Position numbers and translations under genes: made by a program. Positions 27,701 through 58,428 of a stretch of DNA of 64,000 bases are shown here, piece after piece (position 1 is the stretch's first letter; the number at the start of each line of letters is the position of its first letter). Location: positions 30,909,666-30,973,665 of the forward strand of contig OX485807.1 of the NCBI GenBank assembly GCA_950295325.1, written 5' to 3'. Under the pieces are notes generated by a model. That model ran no database searches and was not told the DNA's origin. It worked only from the letters and a program-made list of their open reading frames with translations. This stretch comes from Polytrichum commune (taxonomy: Eukaryota; Streptophyta; Polytrichopsida; Polytrichales; Polytrichaceae).

Positions 27701-28944
27701 ACTCACACATGGAAAGCACATTGTTGACCTTTTGGCATGGCACATTGGCGTCCTAAATGCTAGATGGTATGTGAAACCACGATCAACATGTTGGTTCGAA
27801 GAGTATCTCTTCAACATCTACACCCCCGACATGTTTTACGACATACTGCGAATGCGAAGGAGGACCTTTGACAGGCTTGTGCATGACCTGAGGCCTTTCA
27901 TTCAGGGCCAACCTACGCACTGGAGGTTGCCCATTGGTGTGGAGAAGAAGGTGGTGGTGACCCTTTTCAAGCTCATGCATGGTGTGCCTATACCCTTGGT
28001 CGCGGACAGGGCTGCATTGGGCAAGTCCACCGCGCATGAAATACTACGACAGGTGTGCTCCGCCATAAGCTCCCAGTTCGGACATCTAATTGCATGGCCT
28101 GTGGGTCGGAGGTTGGTCCGGATCGCCGATGACTTCCAGGCCAAGCAGTGGTTCCCGAATTGTATTGGCGCAATTGATGGGTCGCACATATATGTCGCGG
28201 CGCCAACAAACACTATTGTGGCCGCGGATCACTGCAACCGGAACAAATCCTTCTCCATCTTGCTCCAAGGTGTTGTGGATAGCAAGTGTTATTTCACTTC
28301 CATCAACACCGGCCCACCGGGTTCGCTACATGACAGTGCGCATTTCAAAAGCACTGAGTTGTACCGCAAGGTGGAGGAAGGGATTATGGGGGGTTTCCAC
28401 GACGACCCGCTAACCTGGACATCGGCATTGTCTTTCCCTCCATATATTGTGGCGGATCGTGGGTACCCCCTCTTGAGCTGGTGCATCACACCGTTCAAGA
28501 AGGGGCCCCTTGGCTTGCCGTTGACAAGGGAGGAGGCATGGTTCAACAGGAAGCACTCTTCTACACGAATGAGCGTTGAGCGAGGTTAATTTTGGCATAC
28601 TGAAGGCAAGGTTTAAAGAGATCGGAACCAAATCGTCTTTGAAACTAGATTTTCTCCCCACGGTTGTGCATTGTTGTTGTGTTCTACACAACATCCTCCT
28701 AGCTAGCAAGGACAGGACGCTAGACCAAATTTTGATAGACTGTCACCTACCGGCAATGGACGAGAACGACCCCACACGAAGAGAAGATGACGACACGTTC
28801 CAACCGCCAAGGCCAATTGGCCTTGTGAGCGAGGAGAGAGCTCTACTTGAAGGCCAAATGGCAAGGGAAGACATTTTGGATTATTTGGTTTGCATTCAAA
28901 ATGCGGGACACGTTGGAAGACATCCGAGAAGTCAAAGAAATTGA
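24738..28944 (+). pseudogene. PIF/Harbinger-like transposase, element 1 (spliced, frameshifted)
   Basis: Comparison with element 2 supports exons 26288-26382, 26510-26850 and 27219-28944, all with GT-AG borders and matching phases. A tentative first exon is ATG 24738 to 24793 (donor GTGAGC), which ends in the right phase to join 26288. The N-terminal exons encode a helical domain (VEDFWVGYKLFCYAYY; WELQEDC; FDSEVELETH). The last exon has a hydrophobic segment (LLSCIDMCVLIITMYITSM) and the DDE core: GAIDGSH (about 28171), VADRGYP (about 28450), and SVERG (about 28572). Directly after SVERG an extra four bases (TTAA or TAAT, about 28587-28592) shift the frame; ignoring them restores the frame to the stop at 28942-28944. 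The copy is probably inactive because of this single lesion. Confidence 0.85.
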
Positions 28945-30064
28945 AGAACATGCACAATTGAATAGAGTAGGGTAGAAAACTTAACCTTGTGAGAGCATCC
29001 ATGGATGATGCCAACATGAGCAATGCGGAAGTCATGTTACCAAGGTTCTTGGTCCTCTCCACTTCCAATTCGTAAAGCTTTTGATCCATGTTAACCACTT
29101 CGGAGTCCTTTCTTGCAATTCTCGCCTCCCTCGCTGTGTCGAGTGCCATCATTTCACTTCTCCATGCACGCTTCTCTTTGTCTTGCGACTCCACACGAGC
29201 AAGGTACTCAAAATTAAAGTCTTTCACGAAGTCCACAAGGTTCTCAGTGCCCACAGCTTTCCGCTTCCGCCCAGTCGATCCGGGCGTGTCATCTTCGGGT
29301 GTTCCTCCGGTGGGAGACTCGGATGCGGCTGTGCCACTAGCAATGGGGCTTCCCATTCCGCCAGCACTACGAGATTGTGTAGCGGGGGGAGAGCGACCGA
29401 AATTCCTTGCCACCGGAGGCGCAACTCGGTCGGAATCCACGACATCTGTTGCCCTGCCAAAAATCTGCCTCTTTCCAACAAAGCCCTCCATTTCGACATA
29501 CATAGACTCGCTAAATTCCAAGGACATCTTCCTGGTTCTAGACAACTGTTTTTTCTCCTCCCTACTGAGGCCCCACCAATTGGCAGAGCCCGTGCCATCT
29601 ATGTACTCCTTCAGCCTCTTGAAATCCTTAATCAGGCCATCCCACTTGTTGGTGATTTGATCGGTATCCCTTGCACGAAAACCAATAACACTCATGCATC
29701 CCGCCAAGACTAATTTCCATGCCGTGCTTCCGTAAACAAATTTGGCAAGGGAGGGTTGGTTGCAGTTGTGACGGCCGTCCCACTCGATGCGTTTCTGCGC
29801 TATGAGGACAAGCATTTCGGCTTCAGTCCAATTCGGCCCTCGAACCTTGTGTGCAAGTGCACCCTGGGACTCCACTGGAGTACACGACGACCGTGGAGTG
29901 CTTGCCGCACCAACGCCATGCGGTCCATTTCTTCTGCCCGACGATGCATGAGGCAAGGTGGCCTGTTCCTCCACGCAGTCCGCCTCAAACTCACCGTCCA
30001 GGTCAATGGGAAACCGAGCGGAAGGGTGCTGGGAGGTCTCCCCCAAGTGGACAATTTCTTCCAT
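28703..30064 (-). CDS. Myb/SANT-like DNA-binding protein of PIF element 1
   Basis: Start chosen at ATG 30064-30062 (MEEIVHLGE) because element 2 starts at the equivalent codon (MDDIVHLGD). Residues about 73-155 form a trihelix/Myb-SANT-like domain (KVRGPNWTEAEMLVL, then a conserved Trp in SANWWG). A basic segment GRKRKAVG precedes a coiled-coil C-terminus (MDQKLYELEVERTKNLGNM). Homology with element 2 ends at SSMDALTR (about 28985). Beyond it the frame stays open to 28703 across the 3' end of the converging transposase gene; this extension is probably incidental, or AG/GTTAAG there is a splice donor. In PIF/Harbinger elements such a protein binds the element ends and helps bring the transposase to them. 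Confidence 0.85.
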   Translation of the reverse strand: MEEIVHLGETSQHPSARFPIDLDGEFEADCVEEQATLPHASSGRRNGPHGVGAASTPRSSCTPVESQGALAHKVRGPNWTEAEMLVLIAQKRIEWDGRHNCNQPSLAKFVYGSTAWKLVLAGCMSVIGFRARDTDQITNKWDGLIKDFKRLKEYIDGTGSANWWGLSREEKKQLSRTRKMSLEFSESMYVEMEGFVGKRQIFGRATDVVDSDRVAPPVARNFGRSPPATQSRSAGGMGSPIASGTAASESPTGGTPEDDTPGSTGRKRKAVGTENLVDFVKDFNFEYLARVESQDKEKRAWRSEMMALDTAREARIARKDSEVVNMDQKLYELEVERTKNLGNMTSALLMLASSMDALTRLSFLPYSIQLCMFFNFFDFSDVFQRVPHFECKPNNPKCLPLPFGLQVELSPRSQGQLALAVGTCRHLLFVWGRSRPLPVGDSLSKFGLASCPC

Positions 30065-32044
30065 AATGCGACAAACTATCAATACAGAGCCCAACAACCG
30101 AACAATCACACTCTCTGCAGCATCACAGGCAAAAAATCGCCCACTTCAAATGTTTGCACATTGGCCAGGGAATGGCTTCCCCCGCAACACGCAATCTCCC
30201 CAAATATTTGCTGTGAACAATATAAACCAGACCCGCAAAAGGACCCACACTGCCGAGAACATGGTATCTTCGAGCAAACATGAGCGTACCACAACAAACA
30301 GAATGGCATTGTGCGGGGAAATTCAATTCCAATAAAACAGATAGGAGAATGCGAACATGCCCTGCACATCGGGCCACTGCCACCACATTCATAGATGAAG
30401 GAATTCCATATAGCAGACATGAAAGGGGCATTGGAGAATGGGGACACAACCTGGGGAAGGGGAGATAGAACTGGCAGCACCGGAAGAACTGGCAGAGACA
30501 CGCAATTTGGTGGCATAGGGGGAGAGGTGCAGGAGATTTATCAACTAGGAGAATGTGAACCAACGAGCACAGCGCTGCTACGCAGCAAGAACACCGAGGC
30601 AGGGGATCATATCACGGGCACAATCTGCAACGACAGAAACCACAGGGACGTCAATGTCCATGGAGGGCAGGAACAATGCAGAGGTCATGCGCAGTCCATG
30701 TGGTGCAGCTTGACAAGCAGCACACCATGCTTCACACACATCACTGCCTGGGCGGAGTAGTGGCCGGATTTTGACCAGTGCGTGTGCTGGGAGCCAATGC
30801 GGCCAGAGCAGGAGCTAGACGGGCGTCACGACCAACGGAGCCAAATTTGACCAGGCCCGGGCTGCATTGCGTGCAAAAATCAGAATTGAGCTGGAATGCC
30901 AGGTCCCCTGCATTGAGTTCCTAGCTGGAACACGAGGCAGCAATGCGACAGAAAAGAAAACAATTGGCACAAATCAACGACATCCTGGTTTCCGGAGTGG
31001 GCATGCCGGATGGGCCAATCTCAATGTCAGTGCAGGGCCTGCGGCGCAGAGTGAGAGAGGGCCCATGTGCGGCACCCTAAACTCACCGCGGTGGTCGACC
31101 ATGGCTGCTGCGCGCACCTGCATCGCGCATGGCAGGGCGCGCTCTTCCAGAACACCTCCCGACACCGTCGCATGGGCGAGAAGTCGGGGGCTGCGAACGC
31201 TGCGCCTACGAGGTGGAGTTATTCGCGCTGCCAACACGGATGCGGCAATCCATCGCTAGGCCCTTTGGCGGGATTCTAGCGGCCATGTTGACCCGACTGG
31301 GGTTCCGCGACAATAAACGGAGGCGCAGAAATTCGGGCACAGACCCTGCGGGCGGCCACGGAAGAGCAATGCGCGGACAATTCACGGCCCCAACAAATAG
31401 CGCCATGGATTGCCGCACAACGGGAAGGCTTTACGGAGGACAGCATTGCGATCGCGGTGCCCTTCCAAACACCAGCGATAGCGTCGGAACCACCCACATC
31501 ACACGACGACCTTGCGACAACGCCTACGTCCACACAACAATGCCATTCCGGCGGCATCAACCCCAGGAGAGTTGTTAATTATTGCGATTAGGACACGGGG
31601 CGCTGCAACATCCACACCTGACCCTACCCTCTGTTGTTGTGTTTATGTCTTTACCTCTGCACGAACCCCCCACACGTCTGCACTAGGAAGGTTTATCAAA
31701 TTTGCAAAATGCTAACCTGGACGAAATGCACGCTCGACCGACTGATCGCAGCATCTCGCACCTACCAAGGACTCCAAGCTCCCGCAGACACCTTCCCGCG
31801 CGGTGCGGCAAACCCCAGACCTGCTGCTCGGAATGGCCAACTCGCACTTGCGGGCCATCCACCGGAGCGGATGAATGTCATTGCTAGTCGCAGAGTATCA
31901 TCGAGATCATCCAAGGACTCAGTCATAACGTTGGTATCTGCCACCGGTGGGAGAGCAGTGCCCAGAGCAGTTTTGCGAGCATTTCCGGCAGGAAATGCAA
32001 GCCGACAACCTCTGACAGCCTCCCCCCCTCTCGGGGAAAGTTAG
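30065..32044. other. SANT-side arm of PIF element 1, no gene assigned
   Basis: GC-rich sequence upstream of the Myb/SANT-like gene with several overlapping open frames on both strands, none with a recognisable motif or a counterpart in element 2 that I could see. It probably holds the promoter and 5' untranslated exons. Confidence 0.4.
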
Positions 32045-32095
32045 TATGCGAGCGGAGAGCGGAGAGCGGAAAGCGGAGAGCGAAGAGCGGAGAAC
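32045..32095 (+). repeat. Heptamer-type repeats (GCGGAGA) at the right edge of element 1
   Basis: About seven tandem GAGCGGA/GCGGAGA copies. The reverse complement (GCTCTCC) recurs at 49141-49200 beside the corresponding arm of element 2, with the flanking GCTCACATAC/GTATGCGAGC also matching. Confidence 0.8.
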
Positions 32096-32100
32096 TCAAT

Positions 32101-32416
32101 TTGAGACATGAAATGAGAGAGAAATTGCACCTATAACCGCGGGATTGAGGGAAAAATGTTGAACTATTTTTAGAAACTTTGGAGAGTTATGGACTCTATT
32201 ACCGTGGAAATAAAGTAACATTTCCCTATTCATAAAGTTAATAGATTTTTGAAACATAGAAATATTAAAATAAAATACAAAATTAGGGCTTACATCACTA
32301 TGACGTCACAATTATAATTACCGAAATGGTGTACTATATTTTATATTACGGTAAATTAAATAATATTTACTATTTGAACGTGACACGAAGGAGGTTGGCG
32401 AAAAAAATTCTCCACA
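32101..32416. other. No gene recognised
   Basis: AT-rich spacer between PIF element 1 and the pogo-like repeat. Confidence 0.5.
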
Positions 32417-32418
32417 TA

Positions 32419-32850
32419 CAGTCCACCCTCTATTACTGTTACACCTATAAGTGTTAACCATTTCCAAACGTTCACTTTATTCTACTCCCTACATATTGCA
32501 CACTATAAATGTTAAACCTGTTAATTGTTAACAAAACGGTGTTCCCTTCTTTGTAAATTTGACTCTATAAATGTTAACGACTGAAATACATTCATAATTC
32601 ACCCATGATTTGTAAACTTGATATTGAATAAAGTTTTGATTGGGTTTGCAATTTTGTGTATGATATTCTCTCACAATTACTCTTCACAATTGCTTATAGT
32701 TAGGACATGTTAAGATTTGCATATTGTTCAAAGAAGTAATTTTATAATTGTTAACTGTTAACACCTTTATACATGTAAAGTTCGATCCACTCCCGAGGGT
32801 TAACATTTATAGAGGGTGAACATTTGAGGGTGAACATTATAGATGGTGAA
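32419..32850. mobile_element. Short pogo/Tigger-like non-autonomous element
   Basis: Starts CAGTCCACCCTCTATTACTG after a TA (32417-32418). The right side (about 32800-32850) contains degenerate inverted copies (ATTTATAGAGGGTGAAC). The interior is AT-rich with repeated GTTAAC and has no coding capacity. A truncated inverted relative is at 2830-3110. The right end and its TA are not clear. Confidence 0.5.
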
Positions 32851-33195
32851 CAAAAATGAAGAATGCAATGCGGGTAGTATGAATTGGAGTGTGTTGGGTG
32901 GTGTGCAACAAGTATTATTGAATACTTATGATTCAAGGAAACAAGGAGGAGGTGTGTGAGGCAACAACTTTTTATTGGAGTGGGTGGATGCTACATTGTT
33001 TTGTGACTAGCGGTTAAGATTGTGAGAAGATGGTGGACTAAATTCTCTTTGGAGTATGACGACCACCAAGTGAAGCGTGATTTGAGAACAACGAAAAGAT
33101 GCATTCAATGAGATAATTGGAATATTGAAATCCACACAACACTTTATAAATCCAAATACCGATAAATCAAACCAACAAATCAATCAAACCCAAAA
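32851..33195. other. Downstream region of the ParB-methylase gene
   Basis: No gene seen. AT-rich, presumably containing the 3' untranslated region and polyadenylation signals of the minus-strand gene. Confidence 0.4.
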
Positions 33196-36100
33196 TCAAT
33201 CAACCATGAGGTCGTCACTACTAGATTCCCTACTTCCAAAGATACTACCCTCATGGCCGCCCTCATCTGAAGTGGAATCTAAGCTATGGCACTCATTATC
33301 CACCTCCGCAGAATGCTCGAAGAAGTCTAAGGCACGGGGGTCATAGCGTGGAGACGGGGAACTAGCTTCGGTAGGAGAAGGTTGTGCCGCTAGTACCATC
33401 GCCATATCATGGGCATAGATAGGCAATGTGAATCCCATGGTGGGAGTACCCAACACATCCGCTCCAACGCCAAGTCTGAAAAAAAACACGATAAATGTAA
33501 GAAAGAGGATGGAAAGTGTAAAAGCTGAATGGACAAAGAAAATAAGCGAAGAAGGTCATCATACTCACTTACTGCGAGGGCTCTGGCCTCGATCGCTTCA
33601 AGGCCGGCGGCCTCTTCTGCGTGCCTTGTGAAGCCTGCGTGGAAGCAACAACAATGGATGGAGCCTTCACCGTAGGCTGAACACTCTTAAGTGGCTTAAG
33701 GACACGGTTGAAGGTGTCCTCGTCCTCCTCAAGAGCAACGATATGGCGCCCAAGCTGCCTGCATGCATGGATAGAAGTCCCTGTTGCGGAGGAAAGGTTA
33801 GCAAAGGAAAAAAAAACAAACTTAGAAATTGAAAACTAGGATATGTTGGCAAGTGAATTAGGACATACCAACGCCTGCATTAATGTCCACCACAACCTGT
33901 CCAATGTCCGTAGTGGCCATGATCAAGGAGGACATGAAAGAAATATCTTTCTCCCGGGGACCACGCCAAGCTTTGGAGCCGTCCATGAGAGGAGTTGCGG
34001 TATAATTCATAATCGCATCATCCATGTCGAGCTCAATGCCAAGAGCCTTGAGCTCATTGGCATCGCGAAGGCGAAATGACGAGTGCCGGGGCCGCTTATC
34101 AAGGTCAGATCCAATTGTTTTGGTGGCACGAACAAGTAGTACAACTTGGAAGAGGTTGGTGGTCTTGTCCTTATGCTTAGCTGAATGTAGGCGAAGACGG
34201 TTGACTTCCAGCCACTCCTTGAAGATCGTGAACCCAAAAGCAGCGAAGTGGTCTTCAATGCTCTCCCTGAAATCACCATTGTCATCTGGATGAAAGAGGA
34301 GGAGAGCTCCATCGTCATGCAGGATCTCGTCCGCGAAATCGAAGAGTTCACCAATAAAATCGGAATCCAATGCATTCCAGGAAGGCACACTATAGGAAGG
34401 ACCGGAGACATTGGGTACCGGCAGGTTCTCCGGGAGGTCGGCAATGACAAGATCAGCCATGCCCACATCTGACCTCGCAACGCCTAGAGCTCTCCGCGGA
34501 TAGGAGGGTGGAAGAGAAAGAATGAAGTTGGAAACATCCTGAAAATGACGACGTTGATGAAGAATAGAGGCATTCAAGATGCATTCTGAAACAACTGGAG
34601 GACGCCTAGCAGATGAAAGAACGGGCGGAGGAGGCGGCCTGGAAAGAGTAGGAACTTGACTAAGAGTTGCAGTGGATGCAACTGCCGCCTCAGGTGAAGC
34701 AGGGGGATCATCCTCCACAGTCTTCAGCTTCCTCGCGCGCTTCTTTAGTGAAGACTCGTCTTGAGTCGCACGCTTCCTCCTCTTGGACTTCTGAGTGTTG
34801 GGCTCATCGAGAGTCGCAACAACCTCATCCGCCTCCGGAAGCTGACTCTCTAGAAGAACAACCTCATCGCTTTGAGAAGGTGGCTCTCCACCGGAGAGCC
34901 GAATCTTCAAGGCCGCCTCCTCATCCGGCTGCCACGTCCTCTTACACTCCAAGTACCAGCAACACTCGCGGAGATGCGGGAGGGAGAAGTTGCGCTTTTG
35001 AGCCGGGGAAAAAATGAAGGTGGGCGAAGAGGAATCCGACCATGCATCCAGAAATGGAGGAAGCTTCTTCAAAGCCTTCTTCTTGAAAAGCTCGTGCTTG
35101 ATGTACCTTCACAACCAAGGAGTGAGGCCAATAAGCAACTTAGAAAACAACTAGTTTGATATAAATGAGAACAAAAGATGGCCCAACTAACTTACCGGAA
35201 AATTAAGCGCTTGACAATGTTGTCAGCGCCTTTGACATCCTTCCACCACGTCCCCTTTCCATAGATATCTGACCCTGAGAAGTGACCAATGAACGCCTTA
35301 TCCCAAAGGCAAATTCGCCACTTCTCCAAGTAATCCGGCAACGAATCAACTTCCACGTCTCCGTCAAGCCCACCCAATGCACTTAGTATATCCGGTAACT
35401 CCTTGACCGCAGCATCCTCTAGCTGTGAAGGAATTCAAGGCGAACATGAGAATTGGCACAAAATGAAGAATTGAAAGGTAAGCAAAGAAAATAGGATAGA
35501 CGTACCCCTGCCCAGAACGCTGCTTTATTGAGCCAAGATTTCAAGTTGTCCTCGCTTGCAGGACTTTTGGGAAACCGGATAGCTTCACGATTGAAACTTC
35601 CACTGTTCCACCACTTAAGCCAACGGGCTTTATACTCTGGCTCGACAGCGGCAGTGGCAATGAGTTGCAATTTCTCCAATGTCATCTCAATCTTTTGAGA
35701 ATGGTGGGCGCTATAATGCCTAGTAATCTGAAACAAATGCAATCAAAATAGAAGGCCAAGTAAATTTTAGAATGTTTACTGAAAAAATGCTGCAAAGAAT
35801 GCAAGCAATACGAAAAGCATAATTCCAAATTGGATGACAAGGAAATTACCTCATCTAGGAACTGTTTTCCAAGGGCAGGGTTTGCGATCGACTGTTGTTT
35901 GTTGAACTTGTGCCCAAGTTCCTCAGACGTCTTCTTAATTACAGCGTCCAATACATCACTCAACCCCTTCCCTGACTGCTCATCTAGAGGCACTTCCTCC
36001 TTGAAGATTTGGGCCGCCTCATCTACCGCATCGGCTATCTCTTGCTGGACATGTATTCTAAATTGTTAGACCATGACTAAAAGTAATGAATGCGAAGTAG

Positions 36101-37127
36101 GAGCTTGATGAATTTGGAGTGACTTACATTGAAAATGAAGGACACCATAAGATCCTGGGTCAGCGGGTACCAAGGGCTCTTGGGGCCTCTGCTCTTGCAC
36201 GCTTGGAATTGCTCCTCGGTCAACAATGGCTGGTAGTAGCTAAGATCATACGAACCGTATTTTTGGATGCGGTGTAGAGTGTGAACAAGGCTAGTCTTAA
36301 CGTGCGCAGTCTGGTTAGCCCTGTTGCGGTTGAGATAAATGGCATTAGATGAAAATAAAAAAATGAAGGAAAAAATGTTCAAAAAAATAACAAACTTACT
36401 TGTTTATGTCGTGCATTGCATTAAGGACGTCTCCACGCCCACCCGTTGTGTCGAGGATGACACATTCTGGGCAACCATGTTTCTCATACCAAAGTGCATC
36501 GTCCTTGTGATCTGTTTCAATACACTCCTTCCACGCTAGCAAGCGGTGGTTACCATCATACACAAAGAACATGCATCCACTAAGGCTCATCAAGTCCTTA
36601 TCCGAGCGCAAAAAAAACTCAAACTTATCATTTTCTGCATTCCATAGCTCTCCCCATTCACGCTTGTCTTTGGCAGAAATGAATTGATTCTCTCCACTCT
36701 CATTTGCAGTAGACACATAAAAAGTGGCAGACCCAGCTCGGTATCCAAATTGAAATGCTGCCATGAGCTTTGTAACGTCGCTGCGGAGAGTTGGCCGAAC
36801 CAATGGCATGTGAATCAACCTGCAGAGAGGGATTCTCATAGAGGACTTTTCGACCGGTTGTATCCTCATGCCCTCAACAACTGAAAAACTATCTTTTTTA
36901 AAATTGTGGCGAATCCGATACTCCATTACACGAACACCCACATCCGATTCTGGTGGTGAGCCGGTGAGTGTCATCCCGGGTGTCTGCGGTTCGCCACTAC
37001 CAGGTGTAAGCCCAGTAGGTTCAGCACATGACAACGGAGACCCTTGCTCCATATGCTCCTCTACACTAAGGGATGACCCAGCACCAATGCGAACCCCAAC
37101 ATCCAATGACTCTCCATCCGCAACCAT
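33196..37127 (-). CDS. ParB/sulfiredoxin-like plus DNA N4/N6-methylase-like protein, 8 exons, 1,096 aa
   Basis: Eight exons on the minus strand: 37127-36400, 36320-36128, 36044-35850, 35727-35506, 35422-35196, 35106-33869, 33780-33573 and 33475-33196. All introns are GT-AG and every phase agrees, giving 3,291 nt without a stop. Residues about 95-235 resemble the ParB/sulfiredoxin fold, with FVYDGNHRLLAW matching its D-G-x-x-R motif (DGNHR at 191-195). A nuclear-signal-like KSKRRKR lies near 628. Residues about 735-960 resemble a DNA methylase N-4/N-6 domain in beta-class order. An ADLPENLPVP segment (about 744) sits where DPPY is expected, and later VVVDINAGVGTS (about 924) with CRQLGR matches the SAM-binding motif I. 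The altered DPPY makes methylation doubtful. ParB-methylase pairs are typical of bacteria and phages. The start codon is provisional; a further 5' exon is possible. Confidence 0.75.
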
Positions 37128-38389
37128 CTCAACAATCTCCTGAGAATCAATTACTTACCAACATAAGAACCAATAGAATGAACAATGCCACCCAATATTT
37201 ACACGATAATACAACCAAACTCACCTCAGCCTCATTGGGAGCTTTCGGCCATCCACAAAATCCACCTACCTCTAACCTTAGCCTTCTTGTGAGCTTTCAG
37301 CTACCCCCAAAATCCACCCGAAATCAGATTATATGCTAGCAAATATGCCATGTTTCTTTCAAATATAATCTGACCTCTAAATCCCCCCCTAGCTATCAAT
37401 TCGAACCACACTAAGAGCATCTAAACATGACTAAACCCTCACTAACGTGCACAATCCCCCAACTAATACCTGCCCGAATGAGCATCTGGCCTACCAAAAA
37501 GTCCAACAAAAATCAAATTTTGGGTGCACATTTCTGCCCCTAGGGGACTGTCGGATCCGACAGTGCCCCTGGGCTTCCATATCATACCTCACAAGCTAAA
37601 GCCAGCCACAAATATTCAGGTGCTAACAAACACATTTCAGACCCCTACCTCTAACCTTAGCCTCATTGGGAGCTTTCGGCCACCCACATAATCTACCATA
37701 ATTCACATAATATGCTAGCAAATCTGCCCTGTTTCTCTCCACTATAATCTGACCTCTAGTTTGTGCCCCTCCTAGCTATCAAATCGAACCACATTAAGAG
37801 CATCCCAAACCCTTAAAGGCCAAACAGATTATAGAGCACCTCTAAATCCCCCCCTAGCTATCAATTCGAACCACACTAAGAGCATCTAAACATGACTAAA
37901 CCCTCACTAACGTGCATTAACCCCCAACTAATACCTGTCCAAATGAGCATCTGGCCTACCAAAAAGTCCAATAAAAAAAAAAAATTCGGGTGCACATTTC
38001 TGCCCCAAGGGGACTGTCGGATCCGACAATGCCCCTAGCTCTCACCTCTAACCTCACAAGGACCATCCAGCCACCCTAAACCTCCACCCCCAGCTCTCAC
38101 CCTAAACCTCCCGAAAATCAAAAGCGAGGTGCCCATATCTGTCAGTAGGGGTCTGTCGGATCCGACAGTGCCCCTAGCTCTCACCTCTTACCTCACAAGG
38201 ACCATCCAGCCACCCTAAACCTCCACCCCCCAGCTCTCACCCTAAACATCCCGAAAATAAAAAGCGAGGTGCCCATATCTGCCAATAGGAGTAGGGGTCT
38301 GTCGGATCCGACAGTGCCCCTAACGCTCACCTCTAACCTTACTAAGGACGATGAAAAAGAAAGCAGAAGAAACGCACCTTCACCTTCAC
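37128..38389. repeat. Diverged, irregular satellite copies upstream of the ParB-methylase gene
   Basis: Contains four copies of the 16-bp motif CTGTCGGATCCGACAG (one mutated) at about 37556, 38024, 38154 and 38298. The repeated segments CCTCTAACCTTAGCCTCATT and CTCACAAGGACCATCCAGCC also occur. The spacing is irregular, unlike the 170-bp array further right, so this is probably the older edge of the array. No gene seen. Confidence 0.75.
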
Positions 38390-38460
38390 CTCCTCCTCCT
38401 CCTCCTCCTCCTCCTCCTCCTGCTCCTTCTCCTTCTCCTTCTCCTTCTCCTTCGTCTTTT
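38390..38460 (+). repeat. (CTC)n/(CTTCTC)n microsatellite
   Basis: About ten CTC triplets, then CTTCTC hexamers. It gives poly-Leu, poly-Pro or poly-Ser frames that are not genes. Confidence 0.95.
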
Positions 38461-38572
38461 TCTTTCTTTAAGGATGCCTAGTGGGTTTGAAGCAAGGGTT
38501 ATGGGTTCGCCGCTCACATACTTCGCCACTCCGCTCACACAGACTTCGCAGCCTAAAGACGCCGCTCACCCT

Positions 38573-39391
38573 CGGAGACTAGGAGGCACAAGACTAAGGC
38601 CATGAGCTATGCGTAGCTCATGGCGTGGTGATTCTAGAAAGCTGAAGAACACCTCAATCCGAGGTGTGAGCTAGGAGTTATGGCCATTTGAGTGGGGCGC
38701 TGTCGCGGGACAGCGCCCTGGTCGAGCATTGCCTGGGAGTCATTCCCGGGACTGCCAAGGTTCAAACAGGCATAACGTCGTCAATACTTGCATGAATGGG
38801 TCAAGTGAGGGGTCCATCGGCATCTACGTGAAGCGTAGATGAAGATGGAGTGGTTGGTTGTTGGAATCAAAAATCATACAAGAAAGTTATGGTGGTCTGA
38901 AGCTGTTGGGGGCTTCTAGGCCCAGCAGCTAAAGGAAAATGTCTACTTGGCCCCAACTCTTGGTAGAGAGACAAGAGGTTGGTTGACGGTGGGGTAGGGG
39001 CCCCTCGTAGAGTCCTAGAGGCTTATATGGCTGAGGTGGTGTGGCCTCACCCACCCGAGGCCGAACGGCACGGCCTCATTGGGCTTTGGCCCATTGTGAG
39101 GCCATAGTTGCATAGTATGGTTCGGGTTGTTGTAGTGTTGCTCCGGCAACGCGATGATCAACATGGGATTGGACTTCCATCGATGGAAGTCCACATTTGG
39201 GAATGGGTTACCGATTAAGGGGTGAGTCCCGAAAGCAAAGTAGGAGGGTTGGTTCCCCTCCTATGAACTAACCGGTCCGGGTAGGAGGAGCTAACCATTA
39301 GCTTGGCGGTATGCGAAGGGTTAGTACTCGTAACCTATGCTAGAAATGCGAATTGGCAAGATTTTTAAGGGGACTAGCAAGGGTTGCGACA
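38573..39391 (-). repeat. Truncated solo LTR of the chromovirus family
   Basis: Matches the inner and 3' portion of the solo LTR at 41367-42339, from GACTAGGAGGCACAAG to the terminal GGGTTGCGACA at 39391. The first 150 bp or so of the LTR are missing, replaced by sequence with repeated GCCGCTCAC and CTTCGC. No target duplication can be recognised because one end is lost. Confidence 0.85.
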
Positions 39392-39399
39392 ATCTAGCC

Positions 39400-42300
39400 A
39401 CCCTAGAAAGCCACCAAAAATCAGAGAATAACCTCACATTTCTGCCCCCAGCTTTCACCTTGAACCTCCCGAAAATCAAAAGCGAGGTGTCCTTATCTGC
39501 CCCTAGGGGTCTGTCGGATCCGACAGTGCCCCTAGTTCTAACTTCTAACCTCACTAAGGACCATCCAGCCACACTAGGCTGCACCAAAAATCAGATAATA
39601 ACCTTACATTTCTGCCCCAACTCTCACCTTGAACCTCCCGAAAATCAAAAGCGATATGCCCTTATCTGCCCCTAGGGGTCTGTCGGATCCGACAGTGCCC
39701 CTAGCTCTAACTTCTAACCTCACTAAGGACCATCCAACCACACTAGGTTGCCACCAAAAATCAGAGAATAACCTCACATTTCTGCCCCCAGCTTTCACCT
39801 TGAACCTCCCGAAAATCAAAAGCGAGGTGTCCATATCTGCCCCTAGGGGTCTGTCGGATCCGACAGTGCCCCTAGCTCAAACTTCTAACCTCACTAAGGA
39901 CCATCCAACCACACTAGGTTGCCACCAAAAATCAGAGAATAACCTCACATTTCTGCCCCCAGCTTTCACCTTGAACCTCCCGAAAATCAAAAGCGAGGTG
40001 TCCATATCTGCCCCTAGGGGTCTGTCGGATCCGACAGTGCCCCTAGCTCTAACTTCTAACCTCACTAAGGACCATCCAGCCACACTAGGCTGCACCAAAA
40101 ATCAGATAATAACCTTACATTTTTGCCCCAACTCTCACCTTGAACCTCCCGAAAATCAAAAGCGATGTGTCCTTATCTGCCCCCAGGGGTCTGTCGGATC
40201 CGACAGTGCCCCTAGCTCTAACTTCTAACCTCACTAAGGACCATCCAACCACATTAGGTTGCCACCAAAAATCAGAGAATAACCTCACATTTCTGCCCCC
40301 AGCTTTCACCTTGAACCTCCCGAAAATCAAAAGCGAGGTGTCCATATCTGCCCCTAGGGGTCTGTCGGATCCGACAGTGCCCCTAGCTCAAACTTCTAAC
40401 TTCACTAAGGACCATCCAACCACACTAGGTTGCCACCAAAAATCAGAGAATAACCTCACATTTCTGCCCCAGCTCTCACCTTGAACCTCCCGAAAATCAA
40501 AAGCGAGGTGTCCATATCTGCCCCTAGGGGTCTGTCGGATCCGACAGTGCCCCTAGTTCTAACTTCTAACCTCACTAAGGACCATCCAGCCACACTAGGC
40601 TGCACCAAAAATCAGATAATAACCTTACATTTCTGCCCCAACTCTCACCTTGAACCTCCCGAAAATCAAAAGCGATATGCCCTTATCTGCCCCTAGGGGT
40701 CTGTCGGATCCGACAGTGCCCCTAGCTCTAACTTCTAACCTCACTAAGGACCATCCAACCACACTAGGTTGCCACCAAAAATCAGAGAATAACCTCACAT
40801 TTCTGCCCCCAGCTTTCACCTTGAACCTCCCGAAAATCAAAAGCGATGTATCCTTATCTGCCCCTAGGGGTCTGTCGGATCCGACAGTGCCCCTAGCTCT
40901 AACTTCTAACTTCACTAAGGACCATCCAGCCACACAAGGCTGCACCAAAAATTAGATAATAACCTCGCATTTCTGCCCCAGCTCTCACCTCTAACGTCCT
41001 GAAAATCAAAAGCGAGGTGCCCATATCTGCCCCTAGGGGTCTGTCGGATCCGACAGTGCCCCTAGTTCTAACTTCTAACTTCACTAAGGACTATCCAACC
41101 ACCCTAGGAAGCCATCAAAAATCAGATAATAACCTCGCATTTCTGCCCCTAGCTCTCACCTCTAACCTCCTGAAAATCAAAAGCGAGGTGCCCATATCTG
41201 CCCCTAGGGGTCTGTCAGATCCAACAATGCCCTAGCTCTAACTTCTAACCTCACTAAAGACTATCCAGCCACACTAGGAAACCACCAAAAATCAGATAAT
41301 AACCTTACATTTCTGCCCCCAGCTCTCACCTTGAACCTCCCGAAAATCAAAAGCGAGGTGTCCATATGTCGCGCACCTCTCCATGAGGAGTGGCCGAAAC
41401 ACCATGGGCACAAGGGGGACCCCGGAGTGACACCCGGGACTTGTGGCGCCGTTGGTGAGAGGGCCCAAGTGATCCTAGTGTGGGTGAGGGCCCCGGGCGT
41501 TGGGAACGCCTCCCACCCACGAAGACTAGGAGGCACAAGGGTAAGGCCATGAGCTATGCGTAGCTCATGGCGTGGTGATTCTAGAAAGCTCAAGAACACC
41601 TCAATCGGAGGTGTGAGCTAGGAGTTATGGCCATTTGAGTGGGGCGCTGTCCCGGGACAGCGCCCTGGTACAGCAGTGCCTGGGAGTGATTCCCGGGACT
41701 GCCAAGGTTCAAACAGGCATAACGTCCTCAATACTTGTCCGAATGGGGCAAGTGAGGAGTCCATCGGCATCTACGTGAAGCGTAGATGAAGATGAAGTGG
41801 TTGGTTGCTGGAATCAGACATCATACAAGGAAGTTATGATGGTCTGAAGCTGCTAGTGGGTTCTAGGCCCAGCAGCTAAAGGAAAATGTCCACTTGGCCC
41901 CAACTCTTGGTAGAGAGACAAGAGGTTGGTTGACGGTGGGGTAGGGGCCCCGCGTGAAGTCCTAGAGGCTTATATGGGTGAGGTGGTGTGGCCTCACCCA
42001 CCCGAGGCCGAACGGCAAGGCCTCCATGGGCTTTGGCCTATTGTGAGGCCATAGTTGCCTAGTATGGTTCGGGTTGTTGTAGTGTTGCTCCGGCAACGCG
42101 ATGATCAACATAGGATTGGACTTCCATGGATGGAAGTCCACATTGGGGAAATGGGTTACCGATTAAGGGGTGAGTCCCGAAAGCAAAGTAGGAGGGTTGG
42201 TTCCCTCCTATGAACTATTGGTCCAGGGTAAGAGGAGCTAACCATTAGCATGGCGGAATGCGAAGGGTTAGCGACTCGTAACCTTTGCTAGAATTGAAAA

Positions 42301-42650
42301 TTGGCAAGATTATTAAGGGACCTAGCAAGGGTTGCGACACCATATCTGCCCCTAGGGGTCTGTTGGATCCGACAGTGCCCCTAGCTCAAACTTCTAACCT
42401 CACTAAGGACCATCCAACCACCCTAGAAAGCCATCAAAAATCAGATAATAACCTCGCATTTCTGCCCCTAGCTCTCACCTCTAACCTCCCGAAAATAAAA
42501 AGCGAGGTGCGCATATCTGCCCCTAGGGGTCTGTCGGATCCGACAGTGCCCTTAGCTCTAACTTCTAACCTCACTAAGGACCATCCACCACCCTAGGAAG
42601 CCACCAAAAATCAGATAATAACCTTACATTTCTGCCCCAGCTCTCACCTC
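39400..42650 (+). repeat. 170-bp tandem satellite with a palindrome in each monomer
   Basis: About thirteen monomers. The 16-bp palindrome CTGTCGGATCCGACAG starts at 39511, 39680, 39851, 40022, 40191, 40362, 40532, 40701, 40872 and 41041. A mutated copy follows at about 41212; then, after the inserted solo LTR, copies come near 42360 (mutated) and 42531. Spacing is 169-171 bp. CTAGGGG and CCCCTAG flank it, making a near-perfect 33-bp dyad. Other conserved parts are CCTCACTAAGGACCATCCA and AACCTCCCGAAAATCAAAAG. Open frames through it shift each monomer and are not genes. Confidence 0.95.
41367..42339 (-). mobile_element. Solo LTR inserted in the satellite
   Basis: A 973-bp sequence starting TGTCGCGCACC and ending GGGTTGCGACA, the reverse complement of the LTRs at 53117 and 59425 with scattered differences. 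It is flanked by a 5-bp duplication CCATA (41362-41366 and 42340-42344). Without it and one CCATA, the satellite phase is restored (170 bp). It is the product of recombination between the two LTRs of a former full element. Confidence 0.95.
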
Positions 42651-43195
42651 TAACCTCACTAAGGATGCTGAAAAAGAAAGCTGAAGAATGAAAGAAACGA
42701 AACGAAACGAACGAACGAAGGAACCGAACCGAACCGCACCGCACCGCCCGCTTCAACTTCCACTTCGAACCTCACTATGACCATCCAGCCACCGAAATTC
42801 ATATGATCACCTCTCATCTCTGGCCCCTAAGCTATCACATCGAACCACACTAAGAGCATCCAGCCACCCTACAAAGCCACCAAAATTTCTGCCGCCCCAG
42901 CTCTCACCTTGAACCTTACTAAGGATCATCCAGCTCTCACCTCATACCTCACTAAGGAGCCCTTTGCCAACCCTAAACCAGCCATCTAAAGTCATTTGCG
43001 AGGTTCAAATTTCATCCCCCAGGGCTCTCACCTCAAACCTCTCCACGGGGCGACCACTGCCCTTCCCTCGAGTCACTCCCCCGCTCCAAATCGTGGCTGC
43101 AACCCTGCAAGCCTAGTTCAGAGGTCCGTTGTAATGCGGGGAACGATGGTAGGCTACTGCCGCGGCAGTCTTGTTCCCTTCCACTTTTGACGGTC
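42651..43195. other. Satellite edge and simple repeats; no gene
   Basis: Diverged satellite-like phrases (CACTAAGGATCATCCAGC) and a simple repeat GAAACGAAACGAACGAAC grading into CCGAACCGCACC (about 42690-42750). Confidence 0.6.
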
Positions 43196-43607
43196 TCATT
43201 GTGATGTCGAGTGCTTCAACGGGCCCACACTTGTTGCCTTCTCTAGCTCACGAATACAACCCCTAATTTCTAGTGCATATATGTTAACATCGACTTGAGG
43301 TTCATACCTGGGTCTCGCAAATTCTCGATAGATCATGTGATATCTCCACTTGTCTGGTCGTACCCACTCCAGCTTCCTTGCTAGCAATGTCTTCACCACT
43401 GTGAGTCTGGCTTCTCCGTATACGAGACCTTGACCGTGTGCGGTCTGGGGAGAATTCCAATGCCTTGACTGTGCTGTTTAAGCTATCATATCGTTGTTTC
43501 GGTTGTCTCATCCTAGATGCCCTTAATTGCTTCCTGCTTGAGAAAAATGCCTTCCTCCTCCTCTTCGCCTTTGGTTTCACTAACTCTATCGGCGAGGACC
43601 CTGTCAT
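43196..43607 (-). pseudogene. Unrecognised basic-protein fragment, copy A
   Basis: Two overlapping minus-strand frames: a first with KRRRKAFFSSRKQLRASRM (about 43570-43510), and a second continuing with VRPDKWRYHMIYREF. A frameshift lies near 43380. The basic segment resembles KRRKKRGKLYFSSTKALKTS at about 44400-44340, so the two may be duplicated exons or remnants of one gene family. Function unknown. Confidence 0.3.
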
Positions 43608-44961: not shown

Positions 44962-47900
44962 ATGGCTCATATTCCTGCTATTGGAGACTTGGGGTTGGCT
45001 GTCCTCTATGCAGATGGTGTGAGAGTCCCAGTTACCTTTCGGATGCAAGAGGACGGTCTAGCTTACGTGACGTCCCAACGTCTGAGTATTCGGTTCGGCT
45101 TCAGAGAGGATACTATTATTGTTGACGAGGATATTTTTGATGTTGTCACGTCAGAACTTACATACACCCTTGGTCGGGTATCGCAGCGAGATGAGAACAA
45201 TAACTTGTTTTGGAGTCTTCCTCCAGGTAGTTACCGAGTGTATGGCCTCACTGATTCTCAGATGGCTGCGTCTACTGAGATCCTCACTCCTCGTAATTCC
45301 TCTACGTGCACCATTCAAACTCCTCTGCCACGTGATGTGAAGGTCAAGCTCGAGCCCGGTCTCGACACGCCAATTGTAGAAAACGTTAGAGTTCAGTCTG
45401 TAATTACACTTTCTTCAGATGAAGAGGGCAGTCCCACCAAGCCCCCGCCTCAGGTTATAGTTAGTGGGAATGCTCCTAAAGTATATCCTTTGTCCCAAGA
45501 GACTGTTAGCATATTTCCATTGCTAAAACAACTTGCAGGAAGGCCGGGAAAAAAAAATATTCTAAAAAAATTAGATTACTCAGTGATTAGACACGAGAGA
45601 GTAGAGTACCTTCCTGCTGAGTTCGATGGTGTCGTCATATTTGAGTTGCCACCCGCTAGTGACACGGCCGCACGGTCACAGGCCAAGTCAATGCAGGGAA
45701 TGGACAAGCGTTACGACGGCCATGTGTGGACGAAGACCATCACCACCAACATCACAAACGACTTTGGTTTGTCCTTCCGTTCTTCCGCTTGCGTTGGACA
45801 CCTGCGTTGCAACAACAAGGAGTGCGAATATTTGATCCGCCGACCTCGTATTTTCGAAGTCAACGAGACAGAGTTTGAAGGTTGTACCCTCCAAGCCTTT
45901 GTAGTGGATCAAGCGCCCCCACCTGACTCTACGTTTGTTTGCAAGGTATGTAAAGAACCCCCAACATGTATTGCTACATGTGGAGCGAAAATTTATTATG
46001 TTGCTGGCAAAAACAACCACACAAGAGCGTGCATCCACATTGGAACTCACGATCACCCTGTCAAGGTGGGCGACTACAGAGACACTAAGGCTGAGATCAG
46101 TGGCCTAATTGAAGAACAGATCGAGAAGACTCCTCAGGCTACCAAGAGTGCACTTGTGTTGGAGGCTAGCAAAGTTCTAATTGGCAACTATCTTCTTCAA
46201 TCCGATGACGCGCCACCAAAGAAGCTCACTCTGGAGGAACTTGTTCCTGTATTCGACCGGTGCAAGGACATGGCTTCCCCGAACATCCGCAACAAGGTTA
46301 TGAGCTTCCGATACCTCAAAAGGTATGGTGTCATGGACTCTATCACCAAACTCCGTGGAATCAGTTTATGGGCCTTTGTTCAGGAGAACAAATTCCCTGG
46401 TCAAGGGGCTGATCTTGACAAGGTTTTTGTCTTCAAGATGTCGGAAGTCGGGCCTGGTAGTGGGGTAGACTTGGTGAAGCGTATGCAGCCCGGCGAAGAT
46501 CTGGAGAATGCTTGGATGATGTTCGACCATGTGAAACGGGTTAGACAATGGACCACAATGGCATGCCACGTGTATGACTCCACGTATTGTCGTGTCATGA
46601 CCATTGCAAGTTGTGACATGCAATCGGAGGACTGTGATGCCCAGATCGTTTTTTGGAAGAATCTCAATGCTGTGATGGAGAGGAATGGTGTTGTCGATAC
46701 CAACTTCAAGGGTTTCATGGCCGACAGCGCCCAGGCCAATTGGAATGCAGTTCGGGTCATATATGGCAACGGGAAGAAGGAGGACCGCATGGATGACCGG
46801 GAGAGAACCTGTCAGTTTCATTGGACCCAATCTATGGTTAAGTATACCGAGAAATACATTCCCGAAGAACTCTGGGAGCAGTACAAGAAGATGTGCCACC
46901 AATATAGGACCGCGAGGACCATGGACGAAGCGGAAAACCTGTACCACGGGCTACGTGCATGGTGGGTATCCGCCGGGGCAGTGACAGAGAAGGCACTTGA
47001 CAAACTGGAGCTCTGGCTTGCATTCTGGCATTTCCGTTATCGCCAATGGGGAGGCTTCATGACCGGGGTATGTTGTCCCAAAACTTGTTGTTTTTTTTTT
47101 CTTTCACTGTAATTTTCACAACTCTTCTCCAATTTATAATTGCTTCCACTATGTGCACGCAGAAATTTACAGAAGGAGAACTAGCAGAAATGCCTTCATG
47201 TAATCTCGCCGAATCAATACACAACAAGTGGCTTCAAGCGTCTGGAAATAGCGGCGGCGACCTCTATGTTGCTACCGTGGACGACTTCGTTCGAGGCTTC
47301 CTACAGGTTGTCAATTACTACCAGTTCCTGAAAGGTGATGTCGGCGGTACAGGCCCTACAAAGAAAGAGCTCAAGCTAAGGTTGGCAGAGCGCAGGGCGA
47401 AGCAAACGGGTAATCCTTTAGTCCTCGAAGACCCCATGATGGACATGCCTGGAGCAGAAGAGTTATGTACCCGGGTGCCTTGCATGGCTGGGGAAGAGGT
47501 ATTCGGGTCCACGAAACGGAAAGCAGATCTACCTCTTGGAGCAGAAGAGGAGTCGCACAGACCTGATAAGGTCAACTTCTCACATCCCCGTGGCTCTGGT
47601 AGGGCTGTCCGGACTCGTTCCACTAACATGCCCATAATTATTGAAGAGGATGATTCCAATGTCCCGGAAGTTGCACCCATGGCGCCATATGCCGACAATG
47701 TCGTCCCGTCCCACATCCCCGAGGGACGGATCAGCCACGTCACTGCCGTCGAGGAGACTAGGGTGAACGTGAAGGAGTGGCACATCGCTCGGTTGCCAAA
47801 GACTTCTGCCAAATGTTGTTGGGCACAGAGAGCTGTCACCAAAAAGAAGTGTACTGAGAGAATCGTAAGGGGTGCAAAATCAACCCCTACCCCTACGTAC

Positions 47901-48647
47901 ACCGGTCTATGGCACAGCACTAGGAGGAATGTGAAAGAGACCACAGAGTTTTTCTTCTGCTCAGATGATATCCATAGGTGCGTTAAGGGTAGCAGGCGCA
48001 AATGGGTTGTTCAATACTCTGCGGAACAGGAGAGACCAAGCATTCCGGATGTTTGGCCAGTGAAACTTGGCACTAACCTCAAGCAATGTGAGATCCTGGC
48101 CCTCGAGGCGGCCGGATTCCAACTGCCGCAGAAAGTGCCAGTCTCACCCAGAAGGCTCTTTTCCACTGCACCGTCTCCGGCAAATCTAGACTCCGTGCCG
48201 GTGCCAGCAGATGCGGACAGGTATCCTGGGAAGAGAGAAGGGAAGCTCGTTAAGCGCACCGCAACCCGTCCAAACCCTCAGCAGCGGCTATCCATGGGCT
48301 CTTCGGACTCCCTCAAAGCTCAACTCCGCTCGGTCACAATGATTCCTCACCCTGGCCATGGCTGCATCATTGCGCTAGACTCGATGATGCCACCCGATGT
48401 GACACAATACCATATCACCATCAGTTCCCTCCCGGGTTGCACATGCCCTGCGTTCAAGAAGACAATGACCAACTTTCGAGGGCGGAATCAATTCTCGTAT
48501 TGCAAGCATGTTTACTATATTCTTTTAAAGGTCTGCCATCGCAATCCTGATGTAGACCTTTTCATCCACGCGCCAACCTTCAGCTTCAACGAGGTCAAAG
48601 TAATTCTCGATAGTGGAATTTTAACTCACCCTTTAGATCGGACCTAG
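44962..48647 (+). CDS. Mutator-like transposase with SWIM zinc finger, two exons
   Basis: Exon 1 ends at 47067 (donor GTATGT) and exon 2 runs 47163-48647 (acceptor CACGCAG); the phase is 0 and the joined frame is open, 1,195 aa from ATG 44962. The frame is also open up to an ATG at 44851. A Cys/His-rich module at about 45790-46060 (CVGHLRCNNKEC; CKVCKEPPTC; RACIHIGTHDHP) resembles the zinc-binding DNA-binding domains of some Mutator-like proteins. Probable catalytic aspartates are in HVYDSTYC (46576-46578) and GFMADSAQANW (46723-46725), followed by the CxxH motif ERTCQFHW. Exon 2 ends with a SWIM finger: CTC (about 48438), then a CKH group (about 48500). VITLSSDEEG and PIIIEEDD look like SUMO-interacting motifs. 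No disabling lesion is seen, and terminal repeats were not identified. Confidence 0.75.
47068..47162 (+). other. Intron of the Mutator-like gene
   Basis: Begins GTATGTTG, has a T-rich tract and ends CACGCAG. At 95 bp it is typical in length for introns of this window, and it keeps the frame across the join. Confidence 0.85.
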
Positions 48648-49140: not shown

Positions 49141-49200
49141 TTTCTGCTCTCCGCTCTCCAAATCGCCACTCTCTGCTCTCCGCTCTCTGCTCACCGCTCA
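49141..49200 (-). repeat. GCTCTCC repeats at the left edge of PIF element 2
   Basis: About six GCTCTCC-type copies, the reverse complement of the repeats at 32045-32095, followed by GCTCACATAC as at the other element. Marks the SANT-side end of the element. Confidence 0.8.
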
Positions 49201-52200
49201 CATACAAGTCTCGTCCCCCCCCTCTCCGTTCTCTCACCCCCCTGTGCGGGGCCGGATAGCCTCCAAGCACCGGTCACGGGACCATTTCCGGCTTGGAGAC
49301 CACTGGTGCGGCCCCCCCCTAAGGCAGAGTGATAACTCAAGTCTATTGTTTTAGAGATGTGATCGATGTCAGTAACAGTTGCTGTAATTGAATTATATAC
49401 TGGATTATATCCTGAGTGAGTCGTGGTTACCGCATGCAATTAAATATGAGGTTGAATGTTGAGAGTGTACGGATTTCGGAAAGCTCTAAGTCTATAGTCT
49501 GTTTAGTATAGTGAAGGTCAATAATGAATCATACTTCTTCATTGAGAGAGTTCTGGCAGGGAACCATGGCTGTTTTCGATCATCATTGTTGGCAGACTTG
49601 AAATAAAGTTATAGTGAGATATGGCTTCAATACAAATATTACCTAAATTTGTGAAAGGACCTTCTGAGTCAATACAAGGCAATTGGAAGAGAGAAGTTGA
49701 ATTAGGGAGCATCTGTTATATCCTCGCCGAACTTGCAATGATTTTTATTTGCTACAACTAAAGAGGGGGCCACACCCGGGGGTTCCATGCCGGAAATGGT
49801 GCTGAGACCGGTGGGGATCAGCTAACTGGCACCGCACATGGGGTGCCCAAAACTGAGCGGTGAGCAGAGTGTTAGAGGTTGTCGCTTCGTCCTTCCTGCC
49901 GGAAGGGGTTTCAAACCTGCTCAAAGTGCTGACTTCTTGCCGCAGCCAGGTAGCAGCGTTTTGAATCGGGCCTCGGATGACACGGATGAATCTTGGTTGG
50001 ATGTGATGAAGCTCATCCACGGGTAGAGCTGCCCCGCAATGCAAGCGCCCGTTGCGGAGATTGGGGTTTGGCGTGTCGAAGGTCGCTATCGGAGTCTGGG
50101 GTTTGGCGACGTCGTGGAGCCGGTTTGCTGGCGGGAATCAGAAGTGTGCCCGGGAGGGGAGGGCAGGGAGTGGCATTCGAGGCTGCGGAGTGGACGAGCC
50201 GCGGCGGAGGGGTTTGGTTGGCGGGAATCGCAGGTACTTTCGGGTGCAACCCTGTGGGATGCAGATGTGGTTCGCTGTATTTGTTACCTCTGGTTTTGGA
50301 TGGTTGGGGTGCCGGAAAAGTGAACGACCTCTGTGTCCGTGCGCGAGGCACCCCGATCTCTGCTGCATCGTGGAAAGAGGTGCACTTCTTGCGCTACATT
50401 GGTGTTCTGCAAGCGGTCGGCCGTAGGGCACTGCAGGTTATGCTGCCAACAGGCCGCGGTGGAGAGGAGCGTGGCACATGCTTCCGAGGTACCTCCGCAC
50501 CCTGCCCTTCTCGATTGTGGTGTCTGTTCTTCGTCGTGGGTTGTGTGGATTTTTGGTGGTCGTTGTTGTGTTGTGCGGTTCGAGCTCCGGGGGCGCTCCT
50601 CCCTGGCCTCATATTTTCGTGGGGTGGGTTCAAAGCAGTTGTTCCCACTGTTAGTTTTGGCTGTGCGTTTCTGACAGCAGTGGAGGTGGGGGCTTGGGCA
50701 ATGTGGATGGGCATTTGGTGGTGTCCATGCTGCGAATGCCACACCGTGGGGATTGGCGGATGTGTGTTCGGGGTCTGTGCCGCGATCGCCACAGTATGGG
50801 GATGGTGAAATGGGAGGGCGTGGTCGTCCCCGTCTGCGATTTGGGTTGGGTTGGTCCTGCACAGTGTGTGCGTGGGGGGGGGGGAGTGGCAACAATCTGT
50901 TATAGTTTTTGGTTGCCGAGCATGCAACAAAATTGGCTATGGATCTAGGCAGTGTTCATAGGTGCAGTATACGATCGATGCGCGTTCCGGTTGGTTGCAG
51001 TTGCTTCCGTGTTGTGCTGTGTGCTGGGGGAGCTTTATCGTCTGCAATGCTCGAGGCAGTTCCCTCCCGATTCAGGCTGGTAGCATAGGTGGTGGACACA
51101 CTCAATTATCGCTTGGGATTATTGTGGATGGTCGTGTGTTTGTGTTGGTGATTTGTCGGTTTCGGGGTCACTCTATGTGTTGGAGGTTGTCGCCACGCAA
51201 TTTCCCCGCAGTCTGCGACTTGAACCCTGGACTCTTCAAACCCCATTGCCCCATCCTTGACTGGATGTCTGCTCTCCTCCTCCGCAGTTTCGCTGTCCTG
51301 CTTCCAATGCCACATGGGCGGCTATCGTTTCCCCGTTGCTTTACATGGGTTTTGCATAGTGCTAGAGTCGCAATGATGCTAACAACTTTTGGGGGTGTGG
51401 TGTGCAGGTTCGCCCACAAGTGCTCCCGCACTGTGCGGGGCCATTTCGCGGTCCTCACTCTCTGCGTCAGCGACACACCCAGAGTTCTGCAATTACGCGC
51501 ATTCGGGACGTGCATGTGTATGTCTGTTACGCATAGATGTCGTCGGTATCTGCACACAACCTAGCCTATTTTAGTGTGCGGGCACATAGTGCGCTCGGTT
51601 CTGGGCCCCTGGTTTTGCCGAGGATTGGTGCAGGTCAGGGGGGCCTCGCAGAATTCCAGTTGCATCCCTTCCCCATAGTGTGTAGTTGTCCTCCCATTGT
51701 CACCCTCATTCTCTGCATGGCACTCCGCAATGCAGACGGTGTTATTAAATATATGTTTTTTTGGTCAGCCCTTAGGTTGCATGAAACACTCTTCCGCGCT
51801 GTTGTTGGTGTTCATCATATGCTGCGTCCCTTGTGACAATATGCGTCTTTTGTGTTGGCCCATGGGGTTGTGGCGCACTTGTGGATGCCGTGCACGTGAA
51901 CCACTGTCCACCTGCTTCCATGTTCACATCGGTGCCTTTCGGCACCATTCTCAGCTGGTGTTTTTGTGGTGTGAAAATTAACGCTGCCAGATATGCCAGC
52001 AATCTTTAATTGCAAGCCTCCATTCCTCTAACTTAATCGTTCCATCCTTTACTATCACTCTGCCTGAATCGCCCCCAGGTCCCGAGCACCTCACACTGGC
52101 CCACAAGTGATTGCAAGTCTGCAGGGCCCTTCCACATCGGTTCGCCACATTGACAAGCCTGCAATTTGCCGAACACATTGCCGAATTACGTTGTTCCGAT

Positions 52201-58060: not shown

Positions 58061-58072
58061 TATTATGACACA

Positions 58073-58400: not shown

Positions 58401-58428
58401 CAAAAGACTTGGCCTCGGCTTAAGGGTA

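Follow-up and report, generated by a model that had tools for sequence, protein, structure and literature searches.

Our analysis of a 64,000-nucleotide stretch of Polytrichum commune DNA (hereafter the window) revealed an intact, intron-bearing gene for a methylase-like protein inside a 17.2-kb DNA transposon. We tentatively read this gene as an accessory gene of a Mutator-like element whose product may recognise its own element, and consider it likelier that the gene serves this mobile element as a tool than that the plant has domesticated it. The assignment as transposon cargo or accessory follows from its position between the termini of an element whose second gene, likewise intact, is transposase-like. 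An earlier note on this DNA had proposed a domesticated gene of prokaryotic or phage origin that was given introns; the intact, intron-bearing gene stands, whereas domestication is at odds with a location inside transposon termini. The note's further suggestion, an action of the protein on neighbouring transposons or satellite DNA, is in better agreement with our results, with the amendment that the satellite belongs to the same element.

The methylase-like gene and its product

The gene (33196..37127, minus strand, 1,096 codons) was rebuilt from the sequence alone by combining seven strong-looking donors with sets of nearby acceptors, the longest open product being 1,096 residues long. It runs from 37127 to a stop codon at 33198-33196 through eight exons (37127-36400, 36320-36128, 36044-35850, 35727-35506, 35422-35196, 35106-33869, 33780-33573 and 33475-33196). 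All seven introns (79-122 bp) have GT...AG borders and are AT-rich, with 34-51% T and a GC content of 27-37% versus 47-57% in the exons. The spliced reading frame contains the terminal stop alone, and each of the other five frames holds 31 to 82 stops. At the exon 6/7 junction, intron 6 cuts methylase motif I, which splicing restores as DINAGVG/TSIHACRQLGR (the stroke marking the junction); in the PDB comparison the spliced motif aligns with solved bacterial methylases. The eight exons, 1,096 codons and GT-AG borders of the earlier note were reproduced to the exact coordinate, with an open frame and the GC contrast, and the gene model is confirmed at the sequence level, its splice sites being predicted. 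Structure models of single exons reached a mean pLDDT of 34.8 (exon 1, single-sequence) and 33.2, too poor for a fold search.

The C-terminal part of the protein (residues 738-966, encoded in exons 6 and 7 at 33686..34460, minus strand) resembles N4/N6-methylases and carries the motifs DLPE (residues 745-748), GPREKD (904) and DINAGVG (929-935). Trimmed to these residues, it matched the Pfam profile PF01555 (N6_N4_Mtase) with 29.5 bits (E 8.9e-07; cut-off 26.7), the alignment spanning 32-215 of the 221 profile positions; the whole protein scored 25.0 bits, under the cut-off, and exon 6 alone gave no PF01555 match in the Pfam profile search. The same region was matched by DNA methyltransferases of PHROGs (best E 9.4e-08), by the NCBIfam CcrM model (E 1.5e-06, yet far under that model's own cut-off) and by the PDB entries 5hfj (E 9.6e-05) and 6pbd (E 3.7e-04). 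The profile comparison proposed in the earlier note, which had described a permuted N4/N6-methylase-like region with DINAGVG as motif I, gave a PF01555 match above cut-off on the trimmed domain, and the PDB alignment agrees with it; the presence of a methylase-like domain is confirmed.

Relatives of this domain were also sought in viral sequences. A tblastn search of phage genomes with the methylase-like domain returned 113 records with an E of 1 or less, the best E among the matches listed being 2e-05; seven of the 113 covered at least 80% of the query. In hhalign, the whole protein aligned at residues 738-963 to a viral methylase profile with 88.8% probability, placing DLPE on DPPY, and the cut methylase-like piece aligned to the same profile with 65.4%. 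This profile was narrow (Neff 1.8) and comprised 84 sequences, namely four phage proteins and 80 viral contigs, the latter being the best 80 kept from 600 candidate stretches of a viral collection, at least 591 of which held relatives of one of the four phage proteins. Six peptide patterns from exon 6 found no relative in the viral contigs.

The order of the motifs is permuted, the catalytic motif (DLPE, 745) standing ahead of the AdoMet motif (DINAGVG, 929). A search for the catalytic pattern (D/S/N)PP(Y/F/W) found DLPE at 745-748 in its place, as the earlier note had already read it, and the catalytic motif is non-consensus. The methylase activity of the protein is doubtful because of this motif. 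The exchange of proline for leucine in motif IV also occurs in the phage "adenine-specific methyltransferase" L002 (DLPF); the glutamate was absent from the five phage sequences aligned at this position, and therefore weak or no catalysis is to be expected. The glycines of motif I and the lysine of motif X are kept, and the usual phenylalanine of motif I and the HPT of motif X are missing.

The N-terminal half may contain a ParB/sulfiredoxin-like domain, a lead provided by one motif, DGNHR (residues 191-195; 36543..36557, minus strand). We take motifs of the DGxHR kind to be the phosphate-binding motif of the ParB/sulfiredoxin fold, which DGNHR fits; it lies between a hydrophobic strand on its N-terminal side and a helix-like segment on its C-terminal side, presumably as in the ParB/sulfiredoxin group. 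When the protein was shuffled 20,000 times, DGxHR arose by chance in 140 cases, and together with its hydrophobic-strand context in 2, the context pattern having been written after the sequence was viewed. Searches of Pfam, NCBIfam and the PDB gave no ParB match, including no Pfam match in the comparison with ParB_N (PF02195) that the earlier note had proposed. The best ParB sign was the PHROGs family phrog_1033, "ParB-like partition protein", which is not significant (E 0.36 over 20 residues). With the ParB-like part as query, tblastn found five phage records, none of them annotated as ParB, and one plasmid record that carries no annotation under the match, and hhalign left this part unaligned against the 84 viral sequences of the narrow profile. 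For residues 185-577, Pfam gave no match even at an E threshold of 10, leaving no recognised DNA-binding domain there, and six peptide patterns from exon 1 had no relative in the viral contigs. Of the ParB/sulfiredoxin-like context claimed earlier, the motif DGNHR is what remains after the profile, PDB, phage and plasmid searches. The box motifs of the ParB group are named in part of PMC12704722. A candidate for a ParB-like paralogue at about 44.1 kb (tblastn E 0.12) was dropped, as its motif differs from DGxHR and no gene model was seen around it.

The enclosing transposon and its surroundings

The element that encloses the gene occupies 32033-49215 and is delimited by inverted termini, an 11-bp target-site duplication and an empty site in a paralogue. 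The duplication is a direct repeat of CCCCCCCTCTC at 32022..32032 and 49216..49226, its left copy agreeing in breakpoint with the empty-site alignment. Local alignment of the two ends defined imperfect, GAGCGGA-rich terminal inverted repeats of about 60 bp, the left at 32033..32093 (plus strand, with GAGCGGA repeats) and the right at 49148..49215 (minus strand). The alignment of the left with the right terminus scored 83, and the best of 830 control comparisons, which came from the flank of a related copy (copy B, below), scored 63. The best inverted pair around the methylase-like gene is formed by the element termini themselves (37 bp at 86%), and within the element just three pairs of 12-13 bp, none longer, flank the gene as inner inverted arms. 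The left subterminal part (32459-32702) has a 76% match in inverted orientation at 2822-3107, possibly the relic of a relative.

A Harbinger-like element is present twice in the window, in opposite orientations (copy A, 27532-32032; copy B, 62284-49700); the two copies have diverged, being 63-74% alike over long pieces, and the insertion lies in one of them. Copy A stops at 32032 and resumes near 49227-49238, and at the corresponding point copy B (50073 to about 49700, minus strand) continues without a break and represents the empty site. When the flanks of copy A were joined, they gave a gapless junction against copy B with a single copy of CCCCCCCTCTC. The score for the joined flanks was 316, against a maximum of 302 among 300 random right flanks; this control was weak, because the left flank by itself accounts for most of the score and sequence close to the true flank had not been excluded. 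It was replaced by a test of the right flank alone, which scored 88 against copy B, with 1,000 random stretches at 37 or less. The empty site fixes the outer borders of the element and not the time at which the gene entered it.

Mutator-like elements have target-site duplications of about 9-11 bp and in many, not all, cases terminal inverted repeats. The element is called Mutator-like because of its 11-bp duplication and because of the SWIM-type and DxA motifs in its second gene. This second gene (44962..48647, plus strand) is likewise intact, with 1,196 stop-free codons in two exons (44962-47067 and 47163-48647) separated by one intron. It encodes a DSAQ...CQFH stretch (DxA...CxxH) and a C-terminal CTC...CKH finger of SWIM type, and is a candidate Mutator-like transposase. 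The SWIM profile PF04434 matched a 110-residue piece of it below cut-off (E 0.013), and no Pfam MULE match was found even at E 10. Six peptide patterns from its first exon had no relative in the viral contigs. The codon usage of the methylase-like and the second gene is similar (r 0.90), versus 0.77-0.82 for shifted or antisense frames.

The Pfam search also revealed transposases of the hAT (DUF659) and Harbinger (DDE_Tnp_4, Plant_tran) groups in the window. Copy B of the Harbinger-like element contains a DDE_Tnp_4 transposase reading frame at 60879-62618 and also, at 53117-60396, a probably complete and young LTR retrotransposon. The two 972-bp LTRs of the latter (TGTCGC...GCGACA) fall in a 981-bp aligned block of 99.7% identity, and GGCTC stands on both outer sides. 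A further region (11210-18616) holds a hAT-type transposase reading frame (DUF659, 15767-17848, minus strand) and a RING-finger reading frame (12316-13680, plus strand) between inverted CCCCGTCCG / CGGACGGGG minisatellite arrays, perhaps forming one element with cargo. A kinase-like reading frame at 3520-5025 has the motif HNDLNSNNVML (Pkinase E 3.5e-05, below cut-off).

The palindrome array between the two genes

The two genes of the element are divergent, and the DNA between them carries an array of the 16-bp palindrome CTGTCGGATCCGACAG. Seventeen copies at up to three mismatches, 14 of them exact, occur at 37548..42546 against a shuffle expectation of 0.23; all lie between the two genes and none elsewhere in the window. 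Eleven copies form a tandem array with a 171-bp period (39410-41367), and the copy closest to the methylase-like gene precedes its start codon by 421 bp. The consensus widens to a near-symmetric 33-bp dyad, CTAGGGG...CCCCTAG. Among 170 windows ranked by conservation, the palindrome was invariant and came first in the ten core array units, and third both in the seven diverged units and in all 17; this conservation is partly built in, because the units were selected by having the palindrome. The bare palindrome is also present in three viral contigs.

A repeat alignment placed a solo-LTR-like insertion (TGTCGC...GCGACA) at 41367..42339, with CCATA on both sides, where it splits the array, and a truncated copy of the same sequence at 38559-39391. 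The solo LTRs entered the element later than its own insertion. The observed/expected CpG ratio of the array (0.48) is the lowest of six segments of the element, the other five ranging from 0.71 to 0.80, and gives no sign of a methylation-free history of the array.

Alternative readings and related systems

Several other explanations for the gene have to be weighed. That the methylase resemblance is a coincidence in an unrelated plant or transposon protein appears very improbable: the whole-protein PF01555 score, the distance of the CcrM match from its cut-off and the off-consensus catalytic motif would allow it, but the same residues are matched in Pfam, PHROGs, CcrM and the PDB, and the phage tblastn search adds its best listed match. 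The main enzymatic alternative, an active methylase that marks its own DNA at N6-adenine or N4-cytosine (possibly at the GGATCC in the middle of the palindrome) and so alters silencing or transposition, is an unlikely reading as well. The retained motif I glycines and motif X lysine, the D-L-P motif IV of the phage protein L002, and retrotransposons with active C5 methylases of their own in dinoflagellates and charophytes (PMC5890265, in part) speak for such a function; the loss of the motif I phenylalanine and the motif X HPT speaks against it, as does a glutamate at a position normally taken by an aromatic residue (SPPY, DPPY, NPPY and DPPW are the forms given in PMC8885841).

The gene might instead be a passenger, a host or horizontally acquired gene caught by transduplication and useless to the element. 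This is possible at a lower level of confidence than the accessory-gene reading, since the capture of host genes is described as widespread in Mutator-like elements in part of PMC13317346; the captured pieces are, however, said there to be usually non-functional fragments, and here a complete eight-exon frame bears no visible lesion, nor does the transposase candidate. A host gene that was domesticated from a prokaryote or phage and came to be enclosed by the termini through nested insertions or by accident would agree with the intact, intron-bearing structure, with the use of a bacterial-origin 4mC methylase by a liverwort (PMC8885841, in part) and with the silence of the empty site on when the gene joined the element. 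We nevertheless hold it to be improbable, given that the gene lies wholly within matched termini, that the target site is duplicated and its empty form is seen in a paralogue, and that the longest inner inverted pairs around it are the three of 12-13 bp.

Under the preferred reading of an accessory gene of the element, the C-terminal half of the protein would fold as a permuted N4/N6-methylase of the type known from phages and bacteria, and the N-terminal half may be a ParB-like module that has diverged strongly. A nuclear protein is suggested by basic clusters around residues 630-648. As the DPPY position reads DLPE, it would be expected to bind DNA, perhaps with S-adenosylmethionine, instead of methylating it efficiently, and its likeliest target would be the palindrome array between the two genes of its own element. 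Occupancy of the array might keep the divergent promoters of the element open, by analogy with VANC in VANDAL elements. Weighing against this reading are the missing Pfam MULE match of the transposase candidate, the missing significant ParB match, the missing Pfam family in residues 185-577 and the low CpG ratio of the array. The more specific scenario that the transposon took up a phage-like ParB-methylase fusion, which together with a parS-like palindrome array recognises, protects or marks its own copies, is rather unlikely.

ParB-methylase fusions (PF02195 with PF01555) are known from phages and prophages, as stated in part of PMC12704722. The four phage ParB-N6_N4 proteins share with the moss protein a permuted methylase domain C-terminal to the ParB-like part. 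They measure 413, 414, 419 and 697 residues and keep DPPY, whereas the protein in the window has 1,096 residues, introns in its gene and DLPE; it belongs to a eukaryotic transposon, and its ParB domain could not be proved by searches. In VANDAL elements, VANC binds motifs arrayed in the non-coding parts of the element and removes methylation (parts of PMC5735166, PMC10398659 and PMC13317346). The VANC gene of Arabidopsis VANDAL likewise resides on a Mutator-like element with tandem short motifs in non-coding parts (PMC5735166, in part), a likeness in the arrangement of gene and array. VANDALs are described as non-TIR elements in part of PMC13317346, in contrast to the terminal inverted repeats found here, and the word methyltransferase is absent from the main text of PMC5735166.

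DNA-methylase genes on transposable elements have a precedent in the C5 methylases carried by retrotransposons of charophytes and dinoflagellates (PMC5890265, in part), which differ from the present case in both respects, as here the amino-methylase family and a DNA transposon are involved. Bacterial-type 4mC methylases, in turn, occur in eukaryotes as host genes of bdelloid rotifers and Marchantia; the bdelloid N4CMT is a permuted PF01555 enzyme like the domain described here, but keeps SPPY and has a chromodomain (PMC8885841, in part). Among the papers listed in our searches of the open-licence literature, none was found to describe a plant DNA transposon with a gene of the amino-methylase fold.

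Transposons that carry epigenetic tools of their own are few, the plant cases in the sources cited above being the VANC proteins and the C5 methylases of charophyte retrotransposons. The accessory-gene reading makes a simple prediction, namely that the protein binds one 16-bp palindrome. If it is true, phage-type DNA modification modules would be tied to the contest between transposons and silencing.
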